A stretch of 64,000 nucleotides of DNA from Maridesulfovibrio hydrothermalis AM13 = DSM 14728 (GTDB lineage Bacteria; Desulfobacterota; Desulfovibrionia; Desulfovibrionales; Desulfovibrionaceae), in NCBI RefSeq assembly GCF_000331025.1, contig NC_020055.1, positions 2,310,870 through 2,374,869 on the forward strand. The letters are read 5' to 3'. The position numbers and the translations under genes are program-made. Positions 821 to 56,491 of this stretch are shown here, in pieces. The stretch's first letter is position 1, and every line of letters begins with the position of its first letter. The notes beneath the pieces are model-generated. The model worked only from the letters and a program-made list of their open reading frames with translations, was not told the origin of the DNA and did not search any database.

Positions 821-3445
821 TTAACTTACAACATTAAAGCTGAGTCCGTCCGCGTCTACATCAATGGTCACGGTCTGATCTTCTCTGAGGTCACCGCCGA
901 TAATCTGTTTTGCGAGCGGAGTTTCAAGGTGCGCCTGTATATAACGGCGCAGCGGTCTGGCTCCATAGACTGGGTCGTAGGATGCATGTGCTATGAAAGC
1001 TTTAGCATTCTCTGTTACTTCCAAGGACATTTTCTGTCCGCCAAGACGTGCGCGCAGTCCTTCAAGCTGGAGATCAACAATTAATTTGAGGTCAGACTCA
1101 AGCAGCGGCTTGAACAGCACTGTTTCATCAACGCGGTTGAGGAATTCCGGTCTGAAGTGTCCGCTAAGGACGTTCATTACATTTTCCTGAACACCGTTTT
1201 TGAATTCACCATCAGGCTCAATTCCTTCCAGCAGCAGTTGTGAACCGAGGTTGGAGGTCATGATAATGATAGTATTTTTACAATCTATAGTGCGCCCCTG
1301 ACTATCCGTGATACGTCCGTCATCAAGGATTTGCAGCAGCACGTTAAAGACATCACTGTGTGCTTTTTCTATTTCATCAAAGAGCACAACAGAGTAAGGT
1401 TTGCGGCGGATGGCCTCGGTCAGTTGACCGCCTTCATCGTAGCCGATGTAGCCCGGAGGCGCTCCGATCAACCGTGCTACCGCATGTTTTTCCATGTATT
1501 CGGACATATCCATACGTACGATATTTTCTTCGCTGTCGAATAGAGCCTCTGCAAGAGCCTTGCATAGTTCCGTTTTACCTACTCCGGTCGGGCCGAGGAA
1601 GATGAACGAACCGATGGGTCTTGAAGGATCTTTAAGGCCTGCACGGGCGCGCAGTACTGCTTCGGATACAGCACGCACAGCCTCATCCTGTCCGATAACC
1701 CTTCCATGCAGGATATCTTCTAAACGGAGCAGTTTTTCACGCTCGCCTTCAACCAGTCTGGTGACCGGAATTCCGGTCCAGCGCGAAATAATTCCGGCTA
1801 TGTCGTCAGGCCCGACAAATTCTTTAAGTAAACGGCTTCCATTTGAAGAGGCTTTATCTTCACCGCCTTCAATGTCGACCTGAATTTCTTCAAGTCGTTT
1901 TTCGAGTCCCAGCAGGGTTGAATATTTAAGTTCCGCAGCGCGGTTGTAATCGAGACTTCTTTCGGCTTCTTCGATTTGAAGTTTTGTCTGTTCTATCTGG
2001 GCTTTGAGGTTTCGGACAGTGTCGATTGATGCCTTTTCTTTTTCCCATTGTTCAACAAGTTCAGACTGTTTAATCTTCATCTCGGTGAGCGAGTCTTCCA
2101 GTTTGGAAAGTCGTTCACGCGAAGCTTGATCCTCTTCGCGTCTGAGTGCTTCACGCTCAATTTCAGTCTGCAAAATCTGACGGTTGATCTTATCCAGCTC
2201 ATAAGGCTGGGAGTCAATCTCGGTTCTGATCATGGCCGCAGCTTCATCAATGAGGTCAATCGCTTTATCAGGCAGCTGACGGTCAGTGATGTAACGCTGT
2301 GAAAGGGTCGCAGCTTCAACTAAAGCCGCATCGCTGATTCGCACGCCGTGGTGCACTTCAAATCTTTCACGCAGTCCGCGCAGGATAGAAATTGTGTCTT
2401 CGGCAGTGGGTTCTTTAACCATAATGGTCTGGAACCTTCTTTCGAGAGCCGGATCTTTTTCAATATACTTGCGGTACTCATCAGTTGTTGTCGCGCCTAT
2501 GCAGTGCAGCTCTCCGCGAGCCAGCATGGGTTTGAGCAGGTTACCGGCATCCATTGCACCATCGGATTTTCCTGCACCTACGATAGTATGGATTTCATCA
2601 ATAAAAATGATAATCTGTCCATCGGATTCCTGAACTTCTTTAAGTACGGCTTTGAGTCGTTCTTCAAATTCACCACGATATTTGGCGCCGGCGATGAGCG
2701 CGCCCATGTCGAGCATAAATACGGTTTTATCTTTAAGCCCCTCGGGCACATCACGTTTGACAATGCGCTGGGCCAGCCCTTCAATTATGGCTGTTTTACC
2801 AACACCTGCCTCGCCGATAAGGATCGGGTTGTTTTTGGTTCTGCGGGACAGAATGCGGATGACGCGGCGGATTTCAGAATCACGTCCGATTACCGGATCA
2901 AGTTTACCTTTGCGTGCTTCCTCTACCAGATCACGTCCGTATTTTTTAAGCGCATCATAGGTTGCTTCCGGATTATCGGTCGTGACCCGCTGGTTGCCGC
3001 GGATTGTGGTCATGGCTTCCAGCACTTTGTCTTTGGTCAAGTTGAAGGACTTATTAACGCGCCCTGCACCAGTAGAGCCGTGTTCATCCATGATGGCAAG
3101 GAACAGATGCTCCACGCTGATAAACTCGTCCTGCATGCGCTGGGCAGCCGCTTCGGCTTCAACAATAATACGGTTAAGACGCTGGGTAACAAGAACCTGT
3201 CCGGGCTGCGCGCCGGGGCCGCTGACACTGGGCAGCTTGCCGATTTCCTTTTGTACGGCAGATTTATATGCCGAAGGATCAATGTCGCTTTTCTGAATAA
3301 TTTTGGAAACAATGCCGTTTTCCTGTTCCACGAGGGCAAGGAGAAGGTGTTCCACTTCAATTTGTTGCTGGCCGTTTTTAACGGCTAAAGACTGGGCCGC
3401 AGCAATTGCATCGTTAGTTTTTTTTGTGAATTTATTCGGATCCAT
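821..3445 (-). CDS. clpB: ATP-dependent disaggregase ClpB
   Basis: Hsp100/ClpB chaperone that, with DnaK/DnaJ, pulls proteins out of aggregates. In order: an N-terminal Clp_N repeat domain (~1-150), NBD1 with Walker A GEAGVGKT and Walker B IIFIDEIH, a long coiled-coil middle domain (~400-520, rich in E/K/R), NBD2 with Walker A GPTGVGKT and [10 protein letters not shown], and the C-terminal D2-small domain. Length of 874 aa fits the family. A longer frame runs to 3484, but ATG at 3445 ([10 protein letters not shown]) has AAGGAG eight or nine bases upstream and matches the family N terminus, so I chose it. No ClpP-binding IGF loop was noticed, consistent with ClpB rather than ClpA. It lies in the same direction as the co-chaperone pair upstream, but about 350 bp of non-coding DNA separates them. 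Confidence 0.97.
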
Positions 3446-16802: not shown

Positions 16803-17111
16803 ATGAAGCTGTTACTTCCGGTAATTGCACTCCTGATCTGTACGGCAACATTTTCTTTTGCCGAGGATGTTTACGGATGTATTATCAATGAAAGGTCGTC
16901 TCCGGTGGCGGGAACCATTTCTTCTGGTATTTATAGTATCCGTTTTAATGTGCAGGGAGAGTACGTCTGGTGTTATAAACTACCGGAAGGACAGTATTCA
17001 ATACTTACTGATAATGGGAAGATAAACGAAACTTTTTCCGCCTTATGGCAGCGAAGTATAGGTCATGTCGGCGATGAAACACTTCACTGGTTAGTGAAGA
17101 TAAAAGAGTAG
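16803..17111 (+). CDS. Small secreted protein within the leu operon, unknown function
   Basis: 102 aa with a clear signal peptide ([20 protein letters not shown], cleavage after FA) and a mature part of ~80 residues with two cysteines (VYGCI, YVWCYK) that could form a disulfide. Strands predominate by eye ([18 protein letters not shown]). It sits 14 bp after leuD and 8 bp before leuB in the same direction, so it is co-transcribed with leucine genes although nothing suggests a leucine role. No family is recognised. A ribosome-binding site is weak. Confidence 0.75.
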
Positions 17112-17119
17112 GGATCAAA

Positions 17120-18187
17120 ATGAAAATATGTATAATGCCCGGAGACGGAATCGGGCCGGAGATAATGGCTCAAGGTAAAAAAGTCCTTGAAGTGATCGGA
17201 AAAAAATTTGGTCATCAATTTGATACAACAGAAGCACTTATCGGCGGAGTCGCAATTGATGAAACAGGTGTGCCGCTGCCTGATGAAACAGTCAAAGCCT
17301 GCAAAGAGTCAGATGCTGTTCTTCTCGGCGCAGTAGGCGGGCCGAAGTGGGATACAATTGATCCCTCCATCCGTCCGGAGAAAGGTCTGCTCGGAATCCG
17401 CAAGGAATTGTCCCTGTTTGCCAATCTGCGTCCGGCAGCACTTTTCCCGCAGCTTAAAGATGCTTGTTTTCTGCGTCCTGATATCGTTGAAAAAGGTATC
17501 GATGTTATGGTTGTCCGCGAGCTTACCGGAGGAATTTATTTCGGTGAACCGCGCGGAACTAAAACCGAAAACGGCGAACGCATGGGCTATAACACCATGA
17601 TATACTATGAGCATGAAGTAAAACGCATTGCCAAAGTTGCTTTCGAAGCTGCTCGTAAACGTGACAAACGTCTCTGCTCTGTTGATAAAGCAAATGTACT
17701 GGATGTTTCCCGTGTATGGCGTGAAATTGTCACTGAAGTTGCCGCTGACTATCCTGACGTTGAACTTAGCCATATGTATGTTGATAACGCTGCCATGCAG
17801 CTTGTCCGCGATCCTTCACAGTTTGATGTTATTGTGACCGGCAACCTGTTCGGAGACATCCTTTCCGACGAAGCCGCTGTGATTACCGGATCAATCGGAA
17901 TGCTGCCTTCGGCATCTCTGGGTGAATCCAACCCCGGGCTTTATGAGCCTATCCACGGCTCCGCTCCTGATATAGCTGGACAGGATAAAGCCAATCCGCT
18001 GGCAACTATTCTTTCTATAGCAATGATGCTGCGTTATTCATTCAATCTTACTGAAGAGGCCGAATGCATTGAAGTCGCAGTTGAGAAAACCCTCAGTCAG
18101 GGGTTACGCACAGGTGACATTATGGACGAAGGTGGAACCCTCGTCGGATGTACTGAAATGGGCGCAGCTGTTTTGCAGAATATTTAA
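17120..18187 (+). CDS. leuB: 3-isopropylmalate dehydrogenase
   Basis: NAD-dependent oxidative decarboxylation of 3-isopropylmalate, the third leucine step. 355 aa. Family motifs: [11 protein letters not shown] at the N terminus, the substrate-binding RxxxR region around [28 protein letters not shown] with the catalytic tyrosine, [14 protein letters not shown], and the metal-binding aspartates in [14 protein letters not shown] with [14 protein letters not shown] after it. Last gene of the leu unit; an imperfect terminator follows. Confidence 0.97.
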
Positions 18188-18204
18188 GCGTCCGATGATT
18201 ATCA

Positions 18205-18257
18205 GGGGGGTCGGAGTGGAGGATATTTTATAAAAATTTTCCCCCTCTGACCTCCTT
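18205..18257 (+). terminator. Probable terminator after leuB
   Basis: A long imperfect inverted repeat (GGGGGGTCGGAG arm with CTCTGACCTCC arm) encloses an AT-rich loop; it ends in a T-rich stretch. Confidence 0.55.
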
Positions 18258-18552
18258 ATCTTATGGAATTATTTATGAAGCTCTGCGTTTTTATGCGAGA
18301 GCTTCATTTAAGCTTCGGGCGTTTGGCTTGCCTAGGTGTTATTGTAAAATTTCTGCGAGAGATGTTGTCTCCTGACGGGCAACTCCCTCGCTTTTGTTTT
18401 TTGGTATAGTAAGTTGCAAATAGTTTTTCTCTGGTAAGATACCTGATTAAATGTTTCAGGGCTGCTGGCTGTGAAATTTATATTTACGCGCAGCGCATTC
18501 TAACCGTGAAGCAACAAAACCTCAGCATATGCTTGTATGAACCGGACAAAAA
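18258..18552. other. Intergenic region before the MATE gene
   Basis: No gene seen. A hairpin GAAGCTCT / AGAGCTTC lies at about 18277-18305. TTGCAA near 18413 could be part of a promoter for the MATE gene but has no good -10. Confidence 0.3.
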
Positions 18553-19911
18553 ATGACAGACACTCACAATAATCAACCACATCCTTTCGAACTCAACCCT
18601 AATAAGACGTTGCTGACACTGGCGGTTCCTGTGCTTTTTTCTATGATAGCAGAACCGCTTACCGGACTGGTTGATACGGCTTTTGTAGCAAGACTGGGGC
18701 CTGAGGCTTTGGCCTCGCTAGGTATTGGAACTATGGTTTTTTCGTCTGTTTTTTGGGTGTTTGGTTTTCTGGGGATAGGAACTCAGACCGAGGTTGCGCA
18801 GTCACTGGGTAAAGGTGATTTAGATAGAGCTTCTTCGCTATGCTGGCTGGCTGTGGCCATTTCGGTTGTGCTGGGGCTGGTGCTTGGATTTGGTGTGCTG
18901 CCGTTGCTTGGACAAATTGCGGGGTGGATGGGCGGTAGCGGCGAAGTAAGTAAGCTGGCTGTTGACTATATGAGCTATCGGTTGCTGGGTGCTCCGGCAA
19001 TGCTGGTTGTGCTCTCTTGTTTTGGGTCATTGCGCGGTTATCAGGATATGCGCTCGCCGCTGTGGATAGCGGTGGGGATGAATTTAATTAATGTTGTGCT
19101 GGATTGGGTGCTGGTGTTCGGGGTCGGGCCATTTCCTGAAATGGGTGTAGCCGGAGCTGCTCTTGCCAGTGCTGTAAGCCAGTGGATAGGGGCGGTATGG
19201 GCTGTTCTGATTGTACGAAAACACTACGGCTTCAATACGGGATTTAGTCTGGCTGATGCACGGAGACTGTTCAGCATCGGTGGGGATATGTTTGTGCGCA
19301 CCGGCTGTGTGTGTTTGTTTTTGCTGCTCTGTACCCGGTTTGCAACGAAGGCCGGTGCTGATTCAGGTGCGGCGCATCAGGCTATCAGGCAATTTTTCGT
19401 TTTTTTGGCATTGTTTCTGGATGCATTTGCGATCAGCGGCCATTCTCTTGTAGGATATTTTGTTGGGCGTGCTGACCGGATTAATGGGCGCAAAGTCGCT
19501 GCGCTGGTTTGTAAATGGAGCTTTGCTACCGGGATTGTTTTGACTGTGGCTATGTATCTGGGCCAGCAGCCGGTTGCGTGGATGCTGGTCCCTCCGGAAG
19601 CGGCAATGGAATTCGCTCCGGCATGGCTTGCGGTAACCTTTTTGCAGCCGATTAATGCGTTGTCTTTTGCAACTGACGGTATCCATCTTGGAACCGGTGA
19701 TTTCAGGTACTTGCGTAATGCCATGCTGATTGCGGTAAGCAGCAGCACGGTGGTTCTTTTTGCTGTTGATTATTTTCAGCCGCAAAATATGCTGCTGTGG
19801 ATTTGGATTGTAGCGGGCTTGTGGACTTCGCTCAGGGCTTTGCTTGGAGTGATCCGTATCTGGCCCGGAATTGGTGACGGGCCGTTATCTGTTTCAAATG
19901 AGCACGCCTGA
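18553..19911 (+). CDS. MATE family efflux transporter
   Basis: Multidrug/toxic compound extrusion antiporter of the inner membrane, 452 aa with about 12 hydrophobic segments in two similar halves. The first half starts LTLAVPVLFSMIAEPLTGLVDTAFVARLG, recognised from pieces such as PLTGLVDTAFVARLG, the DinF-like signature in TM1-TM2. GTQTEVAQSLGKGD follows in loop 2-3. Substrate unknown. It lies 100 bp before the cobalamin riboswitch, but the riboswitch points downstream, so the gene is probably separate from the cobalt operon. Confidence 0.93.
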   Translation: MTDTHNNQPHPFELNPNKTLLTLAVPVLFSMIAEPLTGLVDTAFVARLGPEALASLGIGTMVFSSVFWVFGFLGIGTQTEVAQSLGKGDLDRASSLCWLAVAISVVLGLVLGFGVLPLLGQIAGWMGGSGEVSKLAVDYMSYRLLGAPAMLVVLSCFGSLRGYQDMRSPLWIAVGMNLINVVLDWVLVFGVGPFPEMGVAGAALASAVSQWIGAVWAVLIVRKHYGFNTGFSLADARRLFSIGGDMFVRTGCVCLFLLLCTRFATKAGADSGAAHQAIRQFFVFLALFLDAFAISGHSLVGYFVGRADRINGRKVAALVCKWSFATGIVLTVAMYLGQQPVAWMLVPPEAAMEFAPAWLAVTFLQPINALSFATDGIHLGTGDFRYLRNAMLIAVSSSTVVLFAVDYFQPQNMLLWIWIVAGLWTSLRALLGVIRIWPGIGDGPLSVSNEHA

Positions 19912-46051: not shown

Positions 46052-46756
46052 TTATACTGAACGGGTGATCCCTCCGTCCACGCGCAGATTTTGGCCTGTT
46101 ATGTAGCTGGATTTACCGGAAGCCAGAAAATATATTGCTTCAGCAATTTCTTCAACTTTGCCGTAGCGTTTCATGGGGATACGATTGCGGCGTTCATCTT
46201 TTTCCGGCAGACTGTCGATAAAGCCGGGTAGAATGTTGTTTATACGGATTCCTTTTGCTGCGTACTGGTCGGAAAAAAGTTTGACAAACGCAGCCAGACC
46301 GGAACGGAAAACTCCTGATGTGGGAAACAGTGCTTCGGGTTCAAAGCAGGCATAGGTGGAGATATTTACGATAGAACCGCTGCCCTGCTTAAGCATCACA
46401 GGAGTTACCAGACGGGCGATGCGGATTACATTAAGAAGATAAACTTCCATACCTTTAGTCCAGTCTTCGTCGGTCATTTCCAGAATATCACCTTTGGGAC
46501 CGTGTCCTGCGCTGTTAACCACGACATCAATGCGTCCCCATTTTTCAATTACCCCGTTGACCAGTTTCGACAGATCGTCAGGGTTGAGATTGGAGCCTGT
46601 CACGCCGAATCCGCCCAGCTCTTCAGCAAGGGCCTCTCCTTTACCAGATGAGGACAGGATTGCCACTTTGTATCCTTCTGCTGCCAGTTTACGCGCAGCT
46701 CCTGCGCCCATTCCACTTCCACCTGCGGTTATGATTGCTACTTTATCCTGAGTCAT
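46052..46756 (-). CDS. SDR family protein with a non-canonical active site
   Basis: 234-aa Rossmann-fold protein. NAD(P) site GGSGMGAGAARKLAAEG (TGxxxGxG type) and NSAGHGP are intact, and the C terminus IYFLASGKSSYITGQNLRVDGG is usual. The catalytic serine is present (IVNISTYACFEPE), but the YxxxK dyad is replaced: the aligned stretch reads PTSGVFRSGLAAF. Homologues with the same PTSxVFR segment are known to me in other proteobacteria, so it looks like a conserved subfamily and not a decayed gene. Whether it is an oxidoreductase is open. It is followed (minus strand) by a terminator; ubiD lies 100 bp downstream-left in coordinates above it, same strand. Confidence 0.88.
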   Translation of the reverse strand: MTQDKVAIITAGGSGMGAGAARKLAAEGYKVAILSSSGKGEALAEELGGFGVTGSNLNPDDLSKLVNGVIEKWGRIDVVVNSAGHGPKGDILEMTDEDWTKGMEVYLLNVIRIARLVTPVMLKQGSGSIVNISTYACFEPEALFPTSGVFRSGLAAFVKLFSDQYAAKGIRINNILPGFIDSLPEKDERRNRIPMKRYGKVEEIAEAIYFLASGKSSYITGQNLRVDGGITRSV

Positions 46757-46856
46757 TGTGATCGCTCCCTGTTTAAAAATATGAAGTCAGTTTTGATGTT
46801 GGTCTAAGTAGTATTTGAAATAAAGTGAGGTCAGGTTTTTATCGGCCTGACAGATT

Positions 46857-48698
46857 CTAAATAATGCCGTACAACGGCCCTCCGGCGGCCCCCAGTGCGT
46901 CTACGCGTTTCTCTACTTCGGGATCTGGCTCAAGCGCCGGAGCGTGGTAGGTTTTCAGCCTTGCATCAATGATGATTGCTTTTTCCGCGCCCCAGTGTTT
47001 GGCGTGGGTGAAGCCTCCTACCCCGTACATATCCGTTGCCGGATCGGAGCGGGTGAAGGTTACCCAGAGAAAATTATCCCAGTTTTGCGCAGTGAAATCG
47101 GCATCATCTGCGACAACGATCATGGGGAATCCTTCAATGCCTTTGGCTGATTTTAACATTTCGCCCAGTCTGTCCAGACGGCTGTCGGGGTGATCTCGTT
47201 TTTCCTGATGTTTCGGTCCTTTGAGGATCAGGATGCCCGGTGCAAAAACTTGCATGTCGCAAAATCCGTCGGGCAGGGTTGTTTCTGTGGGCAGTGTGCT
47301 GGACAGTTCCCGCTTTTTAGATCCTGCGGCGGCGAAGACCAGCTTTGATCCCTGATTCAGACTGATGCCGGAATAGTCGAGTGTATCAATGGTGGTTCTT
47401 GTTATAAAATGAAGATCACGGGTCAGGTCGGCGCGTTGCAGCATATGGTGGAAGAAGGAAGGAATGTTATGGCATGATTCGCCATCGCGCATATCTTCTT
47501 TTGCTGCGATGAATACATATTTTGACAGTGAGGTCTGGGTGTTGCCGAGCAGCCCCATTGCGTTGGTCAGCAGTTCCTGCGGCTGACGCTCTTCGGCATA
47601 TGGAACATAACGTTCACTTCCGACAGCCAGCAGCAGGGGATGTACTCCGGCTGCGTCCACGGCGTGCACTTCATGAACTCCTGAGAAGACTGACGGAACG
47701 AGGTCAGCCGTCAGTTCGTGGATGAATTCGCCGAACATGGTATCTTCCTGCGGCGGGCGGCCTACCGTGGTGAACGGCCAGATGGCATCGTTACGATGGT
47801 ACACATGGTCGACTTTGAGAACCGGAAAATTGTGCGCAAGACTGTAGTAGCCGAGGTGATCTCCGAACGGACCTTCAGGTTTTTCAATATTTGTGATGGA
47901 CCCGCTGATGCAGAAATCAGCCTCAGCCGGAATGGGCAGCCCGTTCTGACGTGTAACCATAGGAATGCGGTGTCCGCCTATGGCGCCGGCGAAGAAGATT
48001 TCAGCCAGTCCTTCCGGCAGTGGCATTACTGCTGCCATCGTCATGGCAGGTGCACCGCCAACGAAAATATTTACTTTAAGCTGTTCACCTTTTTTGAGAG
48101 CCTGTGCATGGTGATGTCCTATACCCCGATGAATCTGGTAATGCAGTCCAACTTCTTCATCGCAGGTAAAGTCGTTACCGGAAAGCTGTACCCGGTACAT
48201 GCCTATGTTCGAACCGTTAAAACCCGGGGCTTCAGGGCTTTCTGAATAAACCTGCGGCAGTGTTACATAACCGCCGCCGTCCATTGGCCATGATATTAAT
48301 TGCGGCAGTTTGGAGACGGTGGTTTCATTTTCCATGACAGGTCCGGTTGAGACTTTTCTGGGCATGGTATGGTAGGCAGTACGCGGCGCTCCGAGATATT
48401 TCCACGGCTTTTTGAGAGCTTCCATCGGACTGAGTTTTAACTTCATGAGCCGTTCGACCATTTCAATAGTGTCGCGGAAAATGAAGCGTACGCGCTCTTT
48501 GGTTCCGTAAATGTTTGCAGCCATAGGGAACTGGCAGCCTTTTACGTTGGTGAAAAGCAGCGCCGGCCCACCTGCTTGAAAAACTCTGCGCTGGATAGCG
48601 CCGATTTCAATATTGGCATCGATTTCAGTGTCGATGCGGAGAAGTTCGCCGCGCGCGTCCAGTGCGTCAAGGCAATCTTTTGTATTTTTGTATCCCAT
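46857..48698 (-). CDS. UbiD family decarboxylase (probably menaquinone pathway)
   Basis: 613 aa prenylated-FMN dependent decarboxylase. Family features: QRRVFQAGGPALLFTNVKG near the N terminus, GMYRVQLSGNDF, GHHHAQALKKGE, EGLAEIFFAGAIGGHRIPMV, EGPFGDHLGYYS (the E…R/E catalytic region) and VGGFTHAKHWGAEKAIIIDA. In organisms making menaquinone by the futalosine route a UbiD homologue (MqnL-like) removes the carboxylate; Desulfovibrio use this route, so this role is inferred. UbiX is not in the window. Confidence 0.87.
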   Translation of the reverse strand: MGYKNTKDCLDALDARGELLRIDTEIDANIEIGAIQRRVFQAGGPALLFTNVKGCQFPMAANIYGTKERVRFIFRDTIEMVERLMKLKLSPMEALKKPWKYLGAPRTAYHTMPRKVSTGPVMENETTVSKLPQLISWPMDGGGYVTLPQVYSESPEAPGFNGSNIGMYRVQLSGNDFTCDEEVGLHYQIHRGIGHHHAQALKKGEQLKVNIFVGGAPAMTMAAVMPLPEGLAEIFFAGAIGGHRIPMVTRQNGLPIPAEADFCISGSITNIEKPEGPFGDHLGYYSLAHNFPVLKVDHVYHRNDAIWPFTTVGRPPQEDTMFGEFIHELTADLVPSVFSGVHEVHAVDAAGVHPLLLAVGSERYVPYAEERQPQELLTNAMGLLGNTQTSLSKYVFIAAKEDMRDGESCHNIPSFFHHMLQRADLTRDLHFITRTTIDTLDYSGISLNQGSKLVFAAAGSKKRELSSTLPTETTLPDGFCDMQVFAPGILILKGPKHQEKRDHPDSRLDRLGEMLKSAKGIEGFPMIVVADDADFTAQNWDNFLWVTFTRSDPATDMYGVGGFTHAKHWGAEKAIIIDARLKTYHAPALEPDPEVEKRVDALGAAGGPLYGII

Positions 48699-48830
48699 TA
48701 ATATTTCCTTATCGTTATCGTGGATCAGTGCCGCTGATTGTAGGGATTACCTTAAGGCTAATCAAGCTCTTACGGATGAAAAATATACAAAATGGCTGGT
48801 GTGGAAAAGTGGGGCTGACTATAAATTAAA

Positions 48831-48855
48831 AAAGCCTGCTTTAAAACGCAGGCTT
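48831..48855 (-). terminator. Terminator of the PH-domain gene
   Basis: AAGCCTGC/GCAGGCTT stem, with six Ts on the minus-strand exit side. Confidence 0.88.
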
Positions 48856-48882
48856 GGGGTTTGTTAGCAGGAAATTTAATGG

Positions 48883-49260
48883 TCAGCGCAGGATTTTATT
48901 TGCCAGAAGCTTCTGGATACCTACAACATCGCTGCCTTTTTTGAGTTCTTTTTTTACGGGGTCACGGCGGCCGGAAATCCACATGGTCAATTCAGAATCC
49001 AAGTCAAAATGACCGGCAGTTTCAACTGAGAAGGTGGAGATAGATTTGTAGGGAATGGAAAGGTATTCTACCTTTTTTCCGGTCAGTCCTTGCTTATCTA
49101 TCAAGATGAGGCGGCCGGATGTGAAGACATACATGTCGCGCACAACCTTAAAAGCGCGTTCTACTTTTTCAGAGTCGGCCATGATCGGTGAAAGTTCTTC
49201 TTGTACATCTTCAATATTTACTTCAGAGGCATTGCCCATCAGGCCGTCTAAAAGTCCCAT
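48883..49260 (-). CDS. Bacterial PH-domain protein (bPH_1 type)
   Basis: 125 aa. After a short leader (MGLLDGLMGNASEVNIED) comes a compact pleckstrin-like fold: KVVRDMYVFTSGRLILIDKQ, GKKVEYLSIPYKSISTFSVE, DLDSELTMWISGRRDPVKKE, and a final helix. This is the PF08000 pattern known from YvbH-like proteins of unknown function; probably oligomeric and cytosolic. Single gene. Confidence 0.88.
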   Translation of the reverse strand: MGLLDGLMGNASEVNIEDVQEELSPIMADSEKVERAFKVVRDMYVFTSGRLILIDKQGLTGKKVEYLSIPYKSISTFSVETAGHFDLDSELTMWISGRRDPVKKELKKGSDVVGIQKLLANKILR

Positions 49261-49367
49261 GATATCTCCTGTGTTCTGTGGTGTTTTTTATGAATACTAT
49301 GACTGAATAATTTTGCCATTTGCCAAAAACATAAAATGGTTAATTTAAAACTCCTATGGAAATGACC

Positions 49368-50225
49368 CTATGGAAAGACTTCACGCACATACTTGTTGTG
49401 AAGCTTAACAGCTTCATGAGGGAGGAAGTTTTGATAGCTGGCTTTGTATGGTTCATAGTATGTGCCTTTAAGGACTTTGTTGATTTTTGATATGATTTTC
49501 TTTCCCCATTTATTTTTGGTGCATCCTACGTATGAAAGAACATATCTGGGTTCTTCTTTAATGGGGATGAAGGTGAAATTATCTTTTACAATTCCTCGAA
49601 ATATCAGCCATTTCATTTCTTGAGGATAGCCTATGACGTAATCAATTCCGTGTTCGATCTGTAGCACTTTTATCAAGCGGGCGAAGACTTCACCTTTATA
49701 TTGTATAACAATGTTATCTGAATCAGGATGACCTGTAATAATCTTGTCTATTGCAGAGCCGTAGCGGCGGCCGTTGGATATACCCATTTTCAGCTTTGAT
49801 TTATTGAAAAGGGCGTCTATTGAAATAAAACCGTCATCATCGATGAATGGTTTGAATTCATTTATTCTCTTTTTTAATATATGGATTCCGTTCATCATAC
49901 CGACCATTGTCGGATTGCTGAATTCAACATATTTTTCACGGCTGGCAGTTTTCAGCAAAGCGATACTGCATGCATTGCTTATTTGAATTTGCCGGAGAAT
50001 GCGGCGGAAGTTTGCAGTCCGGTATACGTGTTTGTATTCAGGAAGGGAGGCTTTTATATGTCTTTCCAGAATGTTGTGATACCCTTTGTCCCAAAAATGG
50101 CCTTTTTCATTAATTATTCCGGGGGCGAAGTCGGCATGATACCAGTTAATGGTATTGTCATTGCATTTGGCTGCTTGGGGAAATAAAAAAATAATCATCA
50201 AGATTATGGGATATATGTATCTCAT
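49368..50225 (-). CDS. Periplasmic solute-binding-like protein (SBP family 3 fold)
   Basis: 285 aa with a signal peptide (IYPIILMIIFLFPQAAKC). The mature chain resembles the amino-acid-binding-protein fold used by many orphan periplasmic proteins in Desulfovibrio: INWYHADFAPG, ACSIALLKTASREKYVEFSN, IDYVIGYPQEMKWL and a C-terminal INKVLKGTYYEPYKASYQNF. No permease is adjacent, so it may be a sensor or orphan binding protein. An exact 9-bp arm palindrome lies 25 bp upstream of the start. Confidence 0.75.
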   Translation of the reverse strand: MRYIYPIILMIIFLFPQAAKCNDNTINWYHADFAPGIINEKGHFWDKGYHNILERHIKASLPEYKHVYRTANFRRILRQIQISNACSIALLKTASREKYVEFSNPTMVGMMNGIHILKKRINEFKPFIDDDGFISIDALFNKSKLKMGISNGRRYGSAIDKIITGHPDSDNIVIQYKGEVFARLIKVLQIEHGIDYVIGYPQEMKWLIFRGIVKDNFTFIPIKEEPRYVLSYVGCTKNKWGKKIISKINKVLKGTYYEPYKASYQNFLPHEAVKLHNKYVREVFP

Positions 50226-50249
50226 AAGTACCTGTTGTACTAAGTTGAT

Positions 50250-50269
50250 GTATTATTGTGCAATAATAC
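50250..50269. promoter_or_regulatory. Candidate operator palindrome
   Basis: GTATTATTG-TG-CAATAATAC: perfect 9-bp arms with a 2-bp centre, 25 bp before the solute-binding-like gene. A 2-nt loop is too tight for a good hairpin, so a dimeric repressor site is the more likely reading. Confidence 0.35.
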
Positions 50270-50472
50270 TTTTTTGCAGTATAAAACGGCTCTGTTTTTT
50301 TTACAAGCCAGTTCTGTTATTTTCTTGAGGTTTGTAGAGTTTCTCCGGGTATTTCCCTCTTTCAATCAAATCGAATCAGTGCTAATTATCCGCTGTTAAT
50401 TTTTGATAAATCTGATGCACAGAACTCTGGTGAGTAATTTGATCTAACTATTAAGAACTAAAGGTGAAAGCA

Positions 50473-50862
50473 TTGTCTCAGCCGACTGAAAAGAGTGTAA
50501 TGCTCATTAATAACTACGTAAAAAAGAACTGTAAACGTACAGGACTGAACCTTCATCCTATGGCGGATGTTTCTGATGCGGTTACTACTGGCCTTGCAAT
50601 GCATATGGACCAGCTCAAAAGGCCTCTTTGCCCCTGCCGTTTTTATCCCGACAAGCAGGAAGCTGTGCAGGAACGTGACTGGCTGTGTCCTTGCGGGGAT
50701 ATGAAGAACTATAAGTATTGTCACTGCATGCTTTTTGTAAATGCTGAGGGAATGCCGATAACTGAGCATCTGCCGGAAGGGCATGAAGGACGTGAGACAT
50801 ATGGCGAAATTGCTGATCCTGCTCCGGAAAGAGGGCGCAGAGGGCAGCATCTACCTAAGTAA
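50473..50862 (+). CDS. Ferredoxin:thioredoxin reductase, catalytic subunit
   Basis: 129 aa. It passes electrons from ferredoxin through a 4Fe-4S cluster and an adjacent disulfide to thioredoxin. The exact family signature CPC-x16-CPC-x8-CHC is seen (RPLCPCRFY … WLCPCGDMKNYKYCHC). A TTG at 50473 has AAGGTG six bases upstream; GTG at 50464 overlaps that site. The plant-type variable subunit is absent here; non-photosynthetic anaerobes use the catalytic subunit with other partners. No thioredoxin gene is adjacent. Confidence 0.93.
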   Translation: MSQPTEKSVMLINNYVKKNCKRTGLNLHPMADVSDAVTTGLAMHMDQLKRPLCPCRFYPDKQEAVQERDWLCPCGDMKNYKYCHCMLFVNAEGMPITEHLPEGHEGRETYGEIADPAPERGRRGQHLPK

Positions 50863-50936
50863 AGTCAATCTTTGAAGGGATCGACATGTCGCTGTTTATA
50901 TGAATTTGTTGACGCGTTATATCAGGAGAATTGAAA

Positions 50937-51605
50937 ATGAAGATAGCTGAGTTTGATTCTGAAAAACGTTTTTTTTATGAAAATGGATACTATCTTACTT
51001 CTGACAAAACGCGAATCCCTAAGCTGCTTGCTCACTATGAATTATATAAAATGGTGCTTGATTTGCCTGGACACATTGTTGAATGCGGCGTGTTCAAAGG
51101 AGCATCTTTTATGCAGTGGGTCACCTTTCGCGAAGCGTTTGAGCATCCATTTTCCCGTAAGGTGATTGGTTTTGATATATTTGGTCCTTTTCCCGAGACT
51201 GAATTTGAGGCTGACGAGAGCAAACGTCAGTTTTTTATAGATGAGACGGGAGGTGGAGTAGGCTTGAGCGTGGATGAAATCGAAGCGAGCTTGAAGTTTA
51301 AGGGTATCAGCAATTGTGAATTGATCAAAGGAGATATAACCAGAACCGTCCCCGACTACATGAAAGCTCATCCAGAGCTTAAGATCTCTCTTCTTCATAT
51401 TGATACAGATATTTATGAACCAGCGGTCACGATCCTTGAAAACATGTACAACAGCATTGTTCGGGGGGGGATTTTGGTTCTTGATGATTATGGAATTTTT
51501 CCGGGTGAAACTAAGGCGGTTGACGATTTTTTCGCAGATAAGGATGTTGTAATTAATAAATTACCTTTTTCTCATCAGATTCCAGCGTATATTGTTAAAA
51601 AATAA
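50937..51605 (+). CDS. TylF-like SAM-dependent methyltransferase
   Basis: 222 aa, related to macrocin O-methyltransferase TylF and to glycan-modifying methyltransferases. HIVECGVFKGASFMQWV is the SAM-binding region, VIGFDIFGPFPE follows, then LLHIDTDIYEPAVTILE with metal-binding aspartates and GGILVLDDYGIFPGETKAVDDF. ATG at 50937 has CAGGAGA before it. It lies 29 bp before the radical SAM gene in the same direction, so they form a two-gene unit. Acceptor probably a sugar hydroxyl; unknown. Confidence 0.87.
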   Translation: MKIAEFDSEKRFFYENGYYLTSDKTRIPKLLAHYELYKMVLDLPGHIVECGVFKGASFMQWVTFREAFEHPFSRKVIGFDIFGPFPETEFEADESKRQFFIDETGGGVGLSVDEIEASLKFKGISNCELIKGDITRTVPDYMKAHPELKISLLHIDTDIYEPAVTILENMYNSIVRGGILVLDDYGIFPGETKAVDDFFADKDVVINKLPFSHQIPAYIVKK

Positions 51606-51633
51606 TCAATATATGAAATAGATAGGATGCGTT

Positions 51634-52989
51634 ATGGATAGAATATTCTCTGCACCGACTGTTTGCAATGTTGAAATTACCCAGAGCTGTAATCAGAAAT
51701 GCCGTCATTGTTACAACTACTGGCGTCAGAGTGATATTCCTACCCGGACAATGACGATGGGGGATATGGATCGCCTTATTGCTCGTATCGTTGAAGCGGG
51801 GATTTTTCATGTCATCCTATCCGGTGGTGAGCCTTTTTTGAACTTTGAGGTTCTCGAATACGGTTTTAAAAAGTTGGCTGAAAATAACATATCTTTCAGC
51901 TGTAATAGCAACTTGGTGCTGGCAAGTGAAGACAAGATCAAGCGGCTGGTTGATGTCGGTCTGGATCATATTTTAACCAGCCTCAACTCTCATGTTCCTG
52001 AAGTTAATGACTACATGGTGAACATGAACGGTGCACATGAACGCATCTTGCGGGGGATCAAACTAGCCCGTAAACACGGCATCCGTGTCAGTGCAAATAT
52101 GATTATTGCTGAAAATAATCTTGATCATGTATATGAGACTGGTCTGCTTGCTCATAACCTTGGCTGTCAGAAGCTGTTCGCCACGAGAACTGTTCCGCCT
52201 GTTAAAGTTGATGATCCTTCCATGACTGAATTTCATTTGGATAAAGATATGGCCCTCAAGGCCTTAGATGAAATGCTTCGCATTAAGGCTGATACAGGCA
52301 TAATGATAGGAACTTTGGTGAGCTACCCTCTGTGTCTGCTCGGTGATTTGGAAAAATATGCAGATTTTGTAGGTCGTGGATGCCCGTCTCAATCAGGTCA
52401 CCTCATGAATATCGGGGTCACAGGTGAGGTCACCGCCTGCGTCCATCAGGCCGATTCTTACGGCAATATTTTCGAACATGGTATCAAGGATGTCTACAAA
52501 AACATGCGCAAGTGGGTTTCTGGAGATTTTCACTACAAAGAATGTCTCGATTGTGATTACCTTGATATATGTCGTTCTGGCTGCCGGACTTCCGCCCATG
52601 CATACTCTGACAGTTTTTCAGGTAAGGATCAGCTCATGACGGGCAGGGAGAATATCACCATTTCTTTCAAATTAGGACGCAATGAAGCCATTATTGAGGC
52701 CATTAAGTCCGGCGCGAAACTCACAGCTCCATCCAGACTCCGTTTTCGTGAGGAAGACGGTTTTTACCTTGTGAATATCAGATGGGCCAATTCCATCACT
52801 GTACCAACTAACATCGCTCTTAAGCTTAAGGAATTCAGCCGGTCTGGTGAAATGTTCACTTTGACTGATCTGGGGATTGAAAATCTTAATCTGGCAGTCC
52901 AGCTATTTGAAAAGGATGCGCTTGAATCAAAGGAGATCAATCTTGATGATCAGCGTAATATGGCGGGATTAAGTATCAATATCAGATAA
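51634..52989 (+). CDS. Radical SAM/SPASM protein with a PqqD-like C-terminal domain
   Basis: 451 aa. Radical SAM cluster motif CNQKCRHCYNYW is near residue 18, with GGEPFL after it. A SPASM domain (~265-330) has many cysteines: GRGCPSQSGH, CVHQADSYGN, YKECLDCDYLDICRSGCR, typical of two auxiliary 4Fe-4S clusters. The last ~85 residues (LRFREEDGFYLVNIRW…, ALKLKEFSRSGEMFTLTDLG) look by eye like a PqqD/RRE peptide-binding fold. That suggests a peptide maturase, but no precursor peptide is seen nearby. Alternatives are sugar or protein-modifying SPASM enzymes. Preceded by a weak GATAGGATG site. Confidence 0.85.
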   Translation: MDRIFSAPTVCNVEITQSCNQKCRHCYNYWRQSDIPTRTMTMGDMDRLIARIVEAGIFHVILSGGEPFLNFEVLEYGFKKLAENNISFSCNSNLVLASEDKIKRLVDVGLDHILTSLNSHVPEVNDYMVNMNGAHERILRGIKLARKHGIRVSANMIIAENNLDHVYETGLLAHNLGCQKLFATRTVPPVKVDDPSMTEFHLDKDMALKALDEMLRIKADTGIMIGTLVSYPLCLLGDLEKYADFVGRGCPSQSGHLMNIGVTGEVTACVHQADSYGNIFEHGIKDVYKNMRKWVSGDFHYKECLDCDYLDICRSGCRTSAHAYSDSFSGKDQLMTGRENITISFKLGRNEAIIEAIKSGAKLTAPSRLRFREEDGFYLVNIRWANSITVPTNIALKLKEFSRSGEMFTLTDLGIENLNLAVQLFEKDALESKEINLDDQRNMAGLSINIR

Positions 52990-53110
52990 GCACACATCTA
53001 AATTCAATGTAAAAAAGTCCAGAGTTCTCTAAATTTGACCGATACTGGATAAGGGGAAACTTCATCCCCCGGGAAGGTTCTGCTTACGGATGGTATTAAT
53101 TGGGGAGGAC

Positions 53111-53197
53111 TTACCTTCCTCGTCTATTCAGGTATAGGGATTCCAGCGCACTGATGGAATCTTCGTGAAAGTGTGGGAGGGGGCATGTAGCTGGCAT
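53111..53197 (-). CDS. Possible micro-ORF after the formyltransferase gene (28 aa)
   Basis: On the minus strand an ATG 10 bp past the formyltransferase stop opens 28 codons (MPATCPLPHFHEDS…LESLYLNRRGR). No ribosome-binding site is clear. It could be a remnant of another gene or chance; it lies in the only gap of the cluster. Confidence 0.2.
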   Translation of the reverse strand: MPATCPLPHFHEDSISALESLYLNRRGR

Positions 53198-53206
53198 TGT
53201 TTTCAG

Positions 53207-54016
53207 CTAATCATCCGCTAGTCTATAATACGGTTTGTACAACTCAATGGAATCCTTATTTTTGCTCAAACCTTCCTCAATTTCTTCAATGCTGAGGTTG
53301 CGTTCAAGGAATGATTTTGCGATATCATCTGTAAAGTCTGCATTCCTTGTGTATCTGATCGCTTGAGATTTATTTTGCGTGACTGGCCTGAAAGAAAAAA
53401 TGCTTTTATCAGCAATTCGTGAGACAAGGCTTTCATGGGCAGATTTCACCGTCATCATAGTAAAATCAAAAGAAGTGCTGCATCCTTTTGTCGTAGGAGC
53501 TACGTGATAGAGCATATCTCCACTGTCCAGTCCTTTGCTGAGCATGTGAATTGTTGCGCCGGTCAGGTGAAAGTTGTTGTCATAAACTGACCAGAAGTTA
53601 CATGAAGATCCCCGATAATACGGAGACATTCCCATATGAATGTTGATAGCTTTTCTTTTGACAAGAAAATCTATCAGCCATCCTTTGATAAAAGATGCTC
53701 CAAATATAACATAGACGTCGGAGTCAAGGGCAGGCTCAAGTATTTTTCGCGACAACGAGTTCAGATCACCGCTTTTGATCACCAGTTCCCTTGCACAAGA
53801 TGAAAAACTTATATCTCCAAAGATGTTTTTTTCGGAAGCTGTCACATGTGAAAAGTATTCTTGAAAAATGTCAGATTTTTTAAAGAAATCTGGATGTTGT
53901 CCCGGAAAGACTGTGTTTACCTCCATGACCGCATAACACTCGTCTGCAATCGCTGAAAGTCTTTTTATTAAATGGAGGTGTCGCGGTTGATTGCTTGTGA
54001 ATACAGTGATTTTCAT
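53207..54016 (-). CDS. Formyltransferase family protein
   Basis: 269 aa, similar to the N-terminal catalytic domain of methionyl-tRNA and sugar formyltransferases. INIHMGMSPYYRGSSCNFW carries the catalytic Asn-His and SPxYRG loop; GATIHMLSKGLDSGDMLYH carries the catalytic aspartate. It lacks the OB-fold domain of Fmt, so a UDP-amino-sugar or other amine is the more likely acceptor. It overlaps the upstream deacetylase gene by 4 bp, which suits a sugar N-formylation route: deacetylate, then formylate. Confidence 0.87.
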   Translation of the reverse strand: MKITVFTSNQPRHLHLIKRLSAIADECYAVMEVNTVFPGQHPDFFKKSDIFQEYFSHVTASEKNIFGDISFSSCARELVIKSGDLNSLSRKILEPALDSDVYVIFGASFIKGWLIDFLVKRKAINIHMGMSPYYRGSSCNFWSVYDNNFHLTGATIHMLSKGLDSGDMLYHVAPTTKGCSTSFDFTMMTVKSAHESLVSRIADKSIFSFRPVTQNKSQAIRYTRNADFTDDIAKSFLERNLSIEEIEEGLSKNKDSIELYKPYYRLADD

Positions 54017-54945
54017 TGTGTACGGCTCTTGACTTTTTTTATCAGGTTTGCGTGATCTTCTCTAGGAATTTCCAAGTTGGATTTAATGTCAGGGATAGAA
54101 AGTGAGGATCTAAATCCAACCTTGATTCCTATTTTTTCCAAAATAGAGAGTGTGGTTTTATTATAGTTTCCACATGGATGTGACATTGCCCAAACATCCT
54201 TTTGCGTGATGTCGGCAACAAATTCTTTGTTTTGTGTATATTCTGATAATTGTTGTTCTTCAGTCAAAGTTGAGATTTGTGTCGGGTGAGAATGCGAATG
54301 TAGCCCGATGGTATGTCCGAGATTTGAAATTTGTTTTAAATCTTCAACGCTCATAAACAAAAATTTTCTACGCTTGCTTTTTGAATAACCTTTAATTGCG
54401 AGCAGTTCATCCATGACATACTCGTATTCATCGGAGGTTAATATTTGGTCTCGCATGAACCGAAACCTTTTGTCGTTTTCTGTATAATAGGGAAAATCAG
54501 CAAGGTAATTCTCGTGGTATTTGTTTTGATATTCCTCATACAGCTGTGAACTGTTTTGTTTCATGTGCTGAAAGTAAAAATCGTAAAATTCATCAATATC
54601 ATCAAAATACGTATTACGAAAATCCCTATAAAATTCTAATGAGTCGGGCGAATTTGAAAAAGCATTGCTATATACAAAATAAAAAGCTTTGATGTTTCTT
54701 GTTTCGAGTTCTGGCAATGCAATATCATATTGAGATTTTAAGGAGTCGTCAAAAGTCAAGCAAACATCTGTCGGCAACAATGTTTTATTTTTAATTTTAC
54801 TATAGTAGTTATCTGGGGATAAGATGGTGTAATTGTCATCAAGCCAATCAAGAAGCATTTGAAAGTCGAGTAAAGATAACGCGCCTTGTCCATTATGGTG
54901 TTTTCTGTTGTCATAAAAATGATGAAACATGACGCAATATAACAT
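54013..54945 (-). CDS. Polysaccharide deacetylase (NodB homology) family protein
   Basis: 310 aa, carbohydrate esterase 4 type. DVCLTFDDSLKSQYDIALPE carries the TFDD motif (metal and base), HSHSHPTQISTL the metal-binding H(S/T)xxHP motif, and AMSHPCGNYN the next conserved block. A central insertion of ~80 polar residues (Asp/Tyr rich: FYRDFRNTYFDDIDEFYDFY) is unusual. Coupled with the formyltransferase; AGAGG lies before the ATG. Base composition is clearly AT-rich compared with the 57-64 kb genes, a sign of acquisition. Confidence 0.88.
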   Translation of the reverse strand: MLYCVMFHHFYDNRKHHNGQGALSLLDFQMLLDWLDDNYTILSPDNYYSKIKNKTLLPTDVCLTFDDSLKSQYDIALPELETRNIKAFYFVYSNAFSNSPDSLEFYRDFRNTYFDDIDEFYDFYFQHMKQNSSQLYEEYQNKYHENYLADFPYYTENDKRFRFMRDQILTSDEYEYVMDELLAIKGYSKSKRRKFLFMSVEDLKQISNLGHTIGLHSHSHPTQISTLTEEQQLSEYTQNKEFVADITQKDVWAMSHPCGNYNKTTLSILEKIGIKVGFRSSLSIPDIKSNLEIPREDHANLIKKVKSRTQ

Positions 54946-54963
54946 TGTTTTTCAGACCTCTTT

Positions 54964-55131
54964 TTATGACCCGCTGATATAGCTAGGAAAAATAGTTTGA
55001 ATGCTTGCTTGGATAGTAAAGCAGCCCATAACAGGATTTAAATTAACTTGTCCTGCAGATATATTAACAATCGTTGTTGCAGTGCTGTTTAAAGTTGGTT
55101 GTAATGAGCTTTGAAGTAAAGTGTATACCAA
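54964..55131 (-). CDS. Possible small ORF or gene remnant upstream of the deacetylase (55 aa)
   Basis: Minus-strand frame from TTG at 55131 to a stop 18 bp before the deacetylase ATG. The peptide looks like the beta-rich end of a protein (LNSTATTIVNISAGQ, NPVMGCFTIQASIQ). No ribosome-binding site is seen. It may be the tail of a degraded gene of the island. Confidence 0.25.
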   Translation of the reverse strand: MVYTLLQSSLQPTLNSTATTIVNISAGQVNLNPVMGCFTIQASIQTIFPSYISGS

Positions 55132-55694
55132 GATTATACAATGAAAGTTGTGATGGAATCGTTAAACAAAGCTAAACAACACTAAATAATTTCAGGAAAA
55201 GCGGCATCTTGGAATGGAAATCCTATATTTCAAAAAAACTAAATCTCGATTGCTTAATGTTGTCAAGCCGTAATTCCGAGTAAGGTAATATCTTCGAGAA
55301 TTAATTATTCCAAAATTAGTTGTCCTCTCCGTTGCCCCGCAGCAATTCATTCTTAAAGTGAACTTTAACGCTAGCTTTAAGGGCTTCTCAAATTTTTGAG
55401 GAGGTCGTAAGCGTTGCAAAATATATTTAACCTTTCATACAAATATTTATTTAGAAGGTAATTCAAAAATAAAACTGAGTAACCCCTCAACTTTATTTTG
55501 GCCTTTGTCCTGTGGAAAACTTTTTTTGTCATTTTATGGCGTTTTATAAATTATTAAAATAACGGACAAAAAAATACAAAACCCAAAATGTTTTGCTATG
55601 TATCAAAAAAGCCTGTGGAAAAGTGATGATTTTTCGGACATAGCTGAAAACAGCTTTGCAAGTACTTGGAAATAGGGTAGATAAAACCCATAGC
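55132..55694. other. AT-rich gene-poor stretch before the CRISPR-like array
   Basis: No convincing gene. A 75-codon minus frame at 55192-55419 has unlikely composition. CCTGTGGAAAA occurs at 55510-55521 and again at about 55612-55622. If the array is read on the plus strand, this is where its leader would lie. Confidence 0.35.
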
Positions 55695-55868
55695 CTCAAA
55701 AGAGGTATCCATATCGGTATGGGTTTTGACTGAAACTTCCTTCCGAACGCAGGAGCAGGAGCAACTCAAAAGAGGTATCCATATCGGTATGGGTTTTGAC
55801 TTGCAGCCGAAAGAGATCTGTACAGTCTTTTTCTCAAAAGAGGTATCCATATCGGTATGGGTTTTGAC
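55695..55868 (+). CRISPR. Orphan mini-CRISPR array: 3 identical 36-bp repeats, 2 spacers
   Basis: Three exact copies of a 36-bp repeat at 55695-55730, 55765-55800 and 55833-55868, starting CTCAAAAGAGGTATCC and ending TCGGTATGGGTTTTGAC. Spacers of 34 bp (55731-55764) and 32 bp (55801-55832) are unrelated to each other. The repeat holds an internal stem CCATA/TATGG with TCGG loop and near-inverted ends (TCAAAA…TTTTGA). Strand is inferred from the AT-rich side on the left and the hairpin on the right. No cas gene is in the window, so it is an orphan or remnant array. Confidence 0.8.
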
Positions 55869-55912
55869 GCAATAAAGCCGCAACTCTTTATTTGAGATTG
55901 CGGCTTTATTGC
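55869..55912. terminator. Strong hairpin directly after the last CRISPR repeat
   Basis: Perfect 15-bp stem GCAATAAAGCCGCAA with its complement and a 14-nt loop. Pairing extends by an A:T and a C:G into the last two bases of the final repeat. The GCCGCAA…TTGCGGCTTTATT core looks like a terminator, in which case the array would be transcribed on the plus strand. Confidence 0.65.
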
Positions 55913-56339
55913 GTTGGAAATTTATTACAAACTTAAAATTACTAAATACTTGCTATTTTTATTCGCAAGTATCCTCGTCCAGAGTGCCACCCATCAAGAA
56001 TACCTGAAAATAATGCAACGTCCATTTCACGCCCCTTATATCCGAAGGTCTAAAACTTAATTTATGTATTTGGAAAATTTCACTTCATAGTTTCTGAACA
56101 TGACCTTGAAGCGTTGCTTTCATGGGGAATGGCAAAAGACAACGCAATATAGCAACTTTATATTGGTGTAAGGTGCAGGGGGTTGGACGGTTACGAACCT
56201 TTAAGTGTCATGATCTCTTTTTCGCTTAACATGTGGGGGGCAACTCCTATTTTTTTTTAAAATTTTGCCCCCACTTTTGCCCCAAGAATTATGAGTTATC
56301 AATAATTAGGGTTGGATAAGCTGAAATAAGAAATCGTAA
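55913..56339. other. Gene-poor stretch with integrase-arm-like repeats
   Basis: No gene of normal size. TTTTGCCCCCA (56263-56273) and TTTTGCCCCA (56275-56284) form a direct repeat, and GTGGGGGGCAA (56233-56243) is their inverted partner. Such TTTTGCCCC repeats commonly flank tyrosine-integrase attachment regions next to tRNA genes. ATACTTGC/GCAAGTAT pairs at 55946-55972. A minus-strand micro-ORF of 27 codons (56025-55942, after AGGGGCG) is possible but unsupported. Confidence 0.45.
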
Positions 56340-56382
56340 AAAAAACAGAAGCCCCACAAGGGTTTTGAACCTTTGCGGGGCT
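56340..56382 (-). terminator. Terminator of tRNA-Ser
   Basis: GCCCC-x-CAA…GG arms around TTCAAAA, then a long T run on the minus strand, about 20 bp beyond the tRNA CCA. Confidence 0.85.
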
Positions 56383-56398
56383 TACTGAATTTTTGGCT

Positions 56399-56491
56399 TG
56401 GCGGAAAGGGTGGGATTCGAACCCACGTATGGTTTGACCCATAACTCGATTTCGAGTCGAGCGCGTTACGGCCGGACTTCGCTACCTTTCC
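56399..56491 (-). tRNA. tRNA-Ser (anticodon CGA)
   Basis: 93 nt with encoded CCA. The acceptor stem GGAAAGG pairs with CCTTTCC, discriminator G. The anticodon stem CTCGA/TCGAG encloses loop CTCGAAA, giving anticodon CGA (reads UCG). A long variable arm (TTATGGGTCAAACCATA) marks the serine class, and the T-arm GTGGG-TTCGAAT-CCCAC is perfect. Confidence 0.97.

Follow-up and report, generated by a model that had tools for sequence, protein, structure and literature searches.

The known systems closest to the locus analysed here are type III-B CRISPR systems that use an RT-Cas1 protein. In the type III-B system of Marinomonas the repeat's last 8 nt form the 5' handle. A type I-F system paired with a III-B RT-Cas1 system, as in the present genome, is a combination for which crRNA sharing was shown there (PMC5576922). 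How common is it for several arrays to go together? One array in four has a companion in its genome with the same consensus repeat, about five arrays at a locus are quite frequent, and arrays remote from cas genes have been reported to gain spacers at comparable rates (PMC12814883). Here we describe a small array, array F, in a 64,000-nt stretch of DNA (the window), which is C2:2310870-2374869 of the chromosome, the 3,703,034-bp contig C2; the second contig of the genome has 5,328 bp. Array F is very probably an intact satellite array; it and its five sisters would then all depend on the single type III-B system of this chromosome.

Anatomy of array F and its genomic site

Array F has three identical 36-bp repeats, CTCAAAAGAGGTATCCATATCGGTATGGGTTTTGAC, and spacers of 34 and 32 nt, with repeat starts 70 and 68 bases apart. 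Exact 36-mers in such regular spacing are far beyond chance, and the coordinates and lengths of the initial annotation were confirmed. In window positions, the features are:

55302-55694, plus strand: leader, about 393 bp homologous to the upstream sequence of arrays A and D; last ~215 bp common to all six arrays
55695-55730, plus strand: repeat 1, leader-proximal, an exact 36-mer identical to 23 other genomic copies
55731-55764, plus strand: spacer 1, 34 nt, single copy in the genome
55765-55800, plus strand: repeat 2, exact 36-mer
55801-55832, plus strand: spacer 2, 32 nt, single copy in the genome
55833-55868, plus strand: repeat 3, terminal and of full length, exact 36-mer
55869-55912, plus strand: trailer hairpin abutting the last repeat, MFE -28.9 kcal/mol, z -8.6 against shuffles, no long T run
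56399-56491, minus strand: tRNA-Ser(CGA), from ARAGORN; conserved edge of the variable region that holds array F

The trailer hairpin is probably the terminator or the 3' end of array F. Allowing up to 9 substitutions, no degenerate repeat copy was found in the window beyond these three. The locus has the make-up of a CRISPR array: the direct repeats are identical, the spacers are unique and of similar length, and on one side lies a conserved leader, 215-393 bp of which are common to sister arrays. The AT-rich island in which the array had been placed is mainly F's own leader (33% GC); the array itself has 44% GC.

Array F sits between a polysaccharide deacetylase gene and the tRNA-Ser. The tRNA, tadA and a purQ-like gene are conserved in relatives, and the DNA 3' of the tRNA differs between species. 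No leader match was found at F's site in relatives, which together with the variable flank makes F species-specific content of the variable region. This region runs from a conserved short-chain dehydrogenase gene to the tRNA-Ser (46052-56399) and its content differs between congeners; here it holds radical SAM, methyltransferase, formyltransferase and polysaccharide deacetylase genes. Integration at the tRNA-Ser was considered and rejected, as the window has no second copy of the tRNA 3' end and hence no classical att site; neither a tRNA fragment nor an att repeat was found in it. In Rfam only the tRNA scored above the gathering score.

Sister arrays and the type III-B locus

Is array F an orphan? 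Locally this earlier description holds, since the window has no match to Cas1, Cas10 or Cas6 and the nine neighbouring proteins tested are not Cas proteins, but genome-wide it does not: a type III-B locus has arrays with the identical repeat, whereas an orphan array would have no cas locus with a matching repeat in its genome. The genome has 24 exact copies of the 36-mer, every one of them in one of six arrays:

C2:10819-11067: array A
C2:24430-24678: array B
C2:27877-28054: array C
C2:36027-36275: array D
C2:118127-118736: array E
C2:2366564-2366737: array F, the array in the window

Several copies of a unit in one genome could also come from a dispersed, non-immune repeat, REP- or MITE-like, that stands in tandem here by chance. 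This has next to no probability, as all 24 exact copies lie in arrays that are preceded by a leader and have unique spacers of 32-37 nt, and none stands alone; the suggestion of a non-immune repeat can thus be set aside. Three of the five arrays besides F lie in or beside the III-B locus, so that a genome search for the repeat does find it beside cas genes. With its homologous leader, this favours service in trans, one of the options that the initial annotation had offered.

The III-B locus is complete (cmr1-6, cas2 and a Cas6-RT-Cas1 fusion) and lies 1.36 Mb from F around the circle, measured from F to array B by the shorter way round and assuming that the contig is circular. An open frame of 827-876 aa adjoining array B matches Pfam Cas6, RVT_1 and Cas1, all over the cut-offs, and carries a YADD motif. 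The cas2 gene (TIGR01573) adjoins array C, and between arrays C and D are cmr6, cmr5, cmr4, cmr3, cmr2/cas10 and cmr1, with D beside cmr1. Cas10 has one GGDD motif and gave no match to an HD-nuclease model. A Cas10/Cmr2 palm match over cut-off and a PF10040 Cas6 match are present at this locus and nowhere else in the genome. Between cmr1 and array D is also a gene for a 225-aa protein with a hydrophobic N-terminus (L029:10187-10864, plus strand), which has no Pfam or NCBIfam match and is conserved (53%) beside cmr1 in the relative G012; it is possibly an accessory or effector of the III-B system.

Array F might instead be served by the second system of the genome, of type I-F, whose cas1 gene lies at 2.574 Mb, outside the window and about 0.2 Mb from F. 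The array next to this gene has a different repeat (L002:1342-2352 for cas1 and 3128-3373 for the array), whose translation, VHCRIGSLE, is another unit; in the 19 kb around cas1f no match to the window repeat was found at up to 9 substitutions. As the repeat of F is exactly that of the III-B arrays and its leader is homologous to theirs, service by the I-F system is very improbable.

The leaders of the six arrays are 86-99.5% identical pairwise over the last 215 bp. F's leader, at 86-89% to those of its five sisters, belongs to the most diverged ones; it has 85% identity to the upstream sequence of A and D over 393 bp, reaching 55302. The leader-proximal ~60 bp are nearly invariant among all six arrays. 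Identical repeats behind diverging leaders are to be expected if the repeat is copied anew at acquisition and is kept by selection in the form that suits a single Cas6. On the other side, about 95 bp downstream of F are homologous to the sequence downstream of arrays A and B, and in A, B, D and F related hairpins follow immediately after the last repeat. Close behind the last repeat of array C, and of one array in the relative G005, are unrelated hairpins of similar strength; that of array E is weak. Covariation in the trailer hairpin amounts to two compensated pairs among four sequences, which is not beyond shuffles and suggestive at most. With a leader and a trailer hairpin of its own, each array looks like a separate transcription unit; a promoter scan gave nothing above chance. 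No spacer is common to any two of the six arrays, and F is therefore no recent duplicate of another array.

Array A (L028:4263-9500 and 17000-19900, C2:9.3-24.9 kb, covering A and B) lies between Fic-like and tyrosine-integrase-like genes; behind array B come a duplicate of the C-terminal part of that Fic-like gene and IS3-like transposase ORFs, all these names being assigned by eye. The 400 bp downstream of A and of B are 98% identical, which indicates that array cassettes were copied here with flanking DNA near a mobile element.

With two spacers, a diverged leader and no cas genes found within the window, could F be a silent remnant, an array that once worked, is now untranscribed or unable to gain spacers, and has been kept by chance? 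This is improbable, given a leader, repeats and a trailer that are all intact. All three repeats, the terminal one included, are perfect despite a leader divergence of 11-14%, the leader-proximal stretch is nearly invariant in the six arrays, the trailer hairpin is whole, and the cell also encodes a Cas set that is compatible. Shortness and leader divergence do count against an intact satellite array, which remains the preferred reading, and spacer uptake or expression may be lower in F than in the other arrays.

The genus gives a further view of the pairing of leader and III-B system. Of the 16 genomes for which both results were listed, four (G000, G005, G012 and G001) have the leader family, and exactly these four encode a full-length Cas6-RT-Cas1 (68-100% identity). 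If the two were independent the chance of this coincidence would be 1 in 1820, a rough guide only given shared ancestry. In G005, arrays with a near-identical repeat adjoin the fusion gene. A genome search with the fusion protein found three full-length relatives in the genus, and a scan of GTDB contigs confirmed none. The repeat was not found in viral contigs or GTDB genome contigs, where records near its own genome may be absent.

Processing, targets and a proposed mechanism

The CCATA/TATGG stem and the TCAAAA/TTTTGA ends described for the repeat are both borne out by the fold. The stem-loop, CCATA-TCGG-TATGG, stops at position 28 of 36 and leaves the 8-nt GTTTTGAC. By computed energy this hairpin is weak (-7.3 kcal/mol, z -1.5), and the minimum-energy fold of the whole repeat also pairs the repeat ends. 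A Cas6 cut at the base of the stem is predicted to leave a handle of the 8-nt type III length. In the last repeat of array C and in that of array E, identity stops precisely at the predicted Cas6 site, behind position 28, and one terminal repeat in G005 (L098) is likewise shortened exactly after nt 28. Such shortened repeats would make sense if the hairpin is required behind the last spacer and the handle can be dispensed with there. Those of C and E are at L029:2877-2912 and L030:8128-8163 (approximate positions).

What do the spacers target? The target search covered the two spacers of F. For spacer 1 phages and plasmids gave no convincing match (one plasmid hit of 82% identity at E=3), for spacer 2 no match, and exact 24-25-nt cores of either spacer were not found in viral contigs; the phage and plasmid search proposed in the initial annotation thus yielded no convincing target. 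The spacers are also not conserved sequence of related genomes, the case named there as speaking against a CRISPR array: at up to 3 mismatches neither has a further copy in its own genome or in 16 congeners. The lack of targets is not evidence against function, because the spacer repertoires of RT-using systems are called enigmatic in the title of PMC5513706.

Most likely it is the III-B system that, acting in trans, processes and uses the RNA of array F. In the proposed mechanism the leader would drive a pre-crRNA of F, and the Cas6 domain of Cas6-RT-Cas1 would cleave every repeat at the 3' base of its CCATA/TATGG hairpin, so that GTTTTGAC remains as 5' handle. A Cmr complex with these crRNAs would then detect matching transcripts, and Cas10 would probably signal through its cyclase motif. 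RT-Cas1 and Cas2 would insert spacers at the leader end, possibly from RNA, and F may have undergone recent adaptation in this way. An old duplication of a leader-array-trailer cassette probably brought F to the variable region beside the tRNA-Ser. A bolder version is improbable, though it can be stated: the RT-Cas1 system would use distributed small leader-array-trailer cassettes that spread over the chromosome as units, keeping an RNA-derived memory over six short banks, of which F would be the most far-flung and still gaining spacers.

Array F among known systems

The analysis assigns an apparently orphan array to a complete system elsewhere in the genome. Array F is a natural test of whether RT-Cas1 feeds arrays distant from its locus, and the three relatives that bear RT-Cas1 allow a comparison of leaders. 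Apart from these points, nothing in it goes beyond ordinary CRISPR biology. Several arrays for one cas locus are a well-known situation, and both this and identical repeats in arrays remote from cas genes are common (PMC12814883).

The type III-B Cas6-RT-Cas1 systems of PMC5513706 have, as here, Cas6, RT and Cas1 in one polypeptide beside Cas2 and cmr genes; the name Desulfovibrio does not appear in the main text of that paper. Set against the multi-array loci of PMC12814883, the present case differs in nothing essential, and its six arrays are at the higher end. In gene content and array layout, by which the two were compared, Marinomonas MMB-1 likewise has a type III-B system with an RT-Cas1 fusion, Cas2, six cmr genes and several arrays, together with a co-resident type I-F system; its 5' handle comprises the final 8 nt of the repeat, as predicted here, and an HD nuclease domain of Cas10 is not evident in either. 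The difference lies in the arrays: MMB-1 has two III-B arrays inside the locus, with 58 and 8 spacers, whereas the six arrays here, all short and with one repeat in common, include one at a distance of 1.36 Mb.
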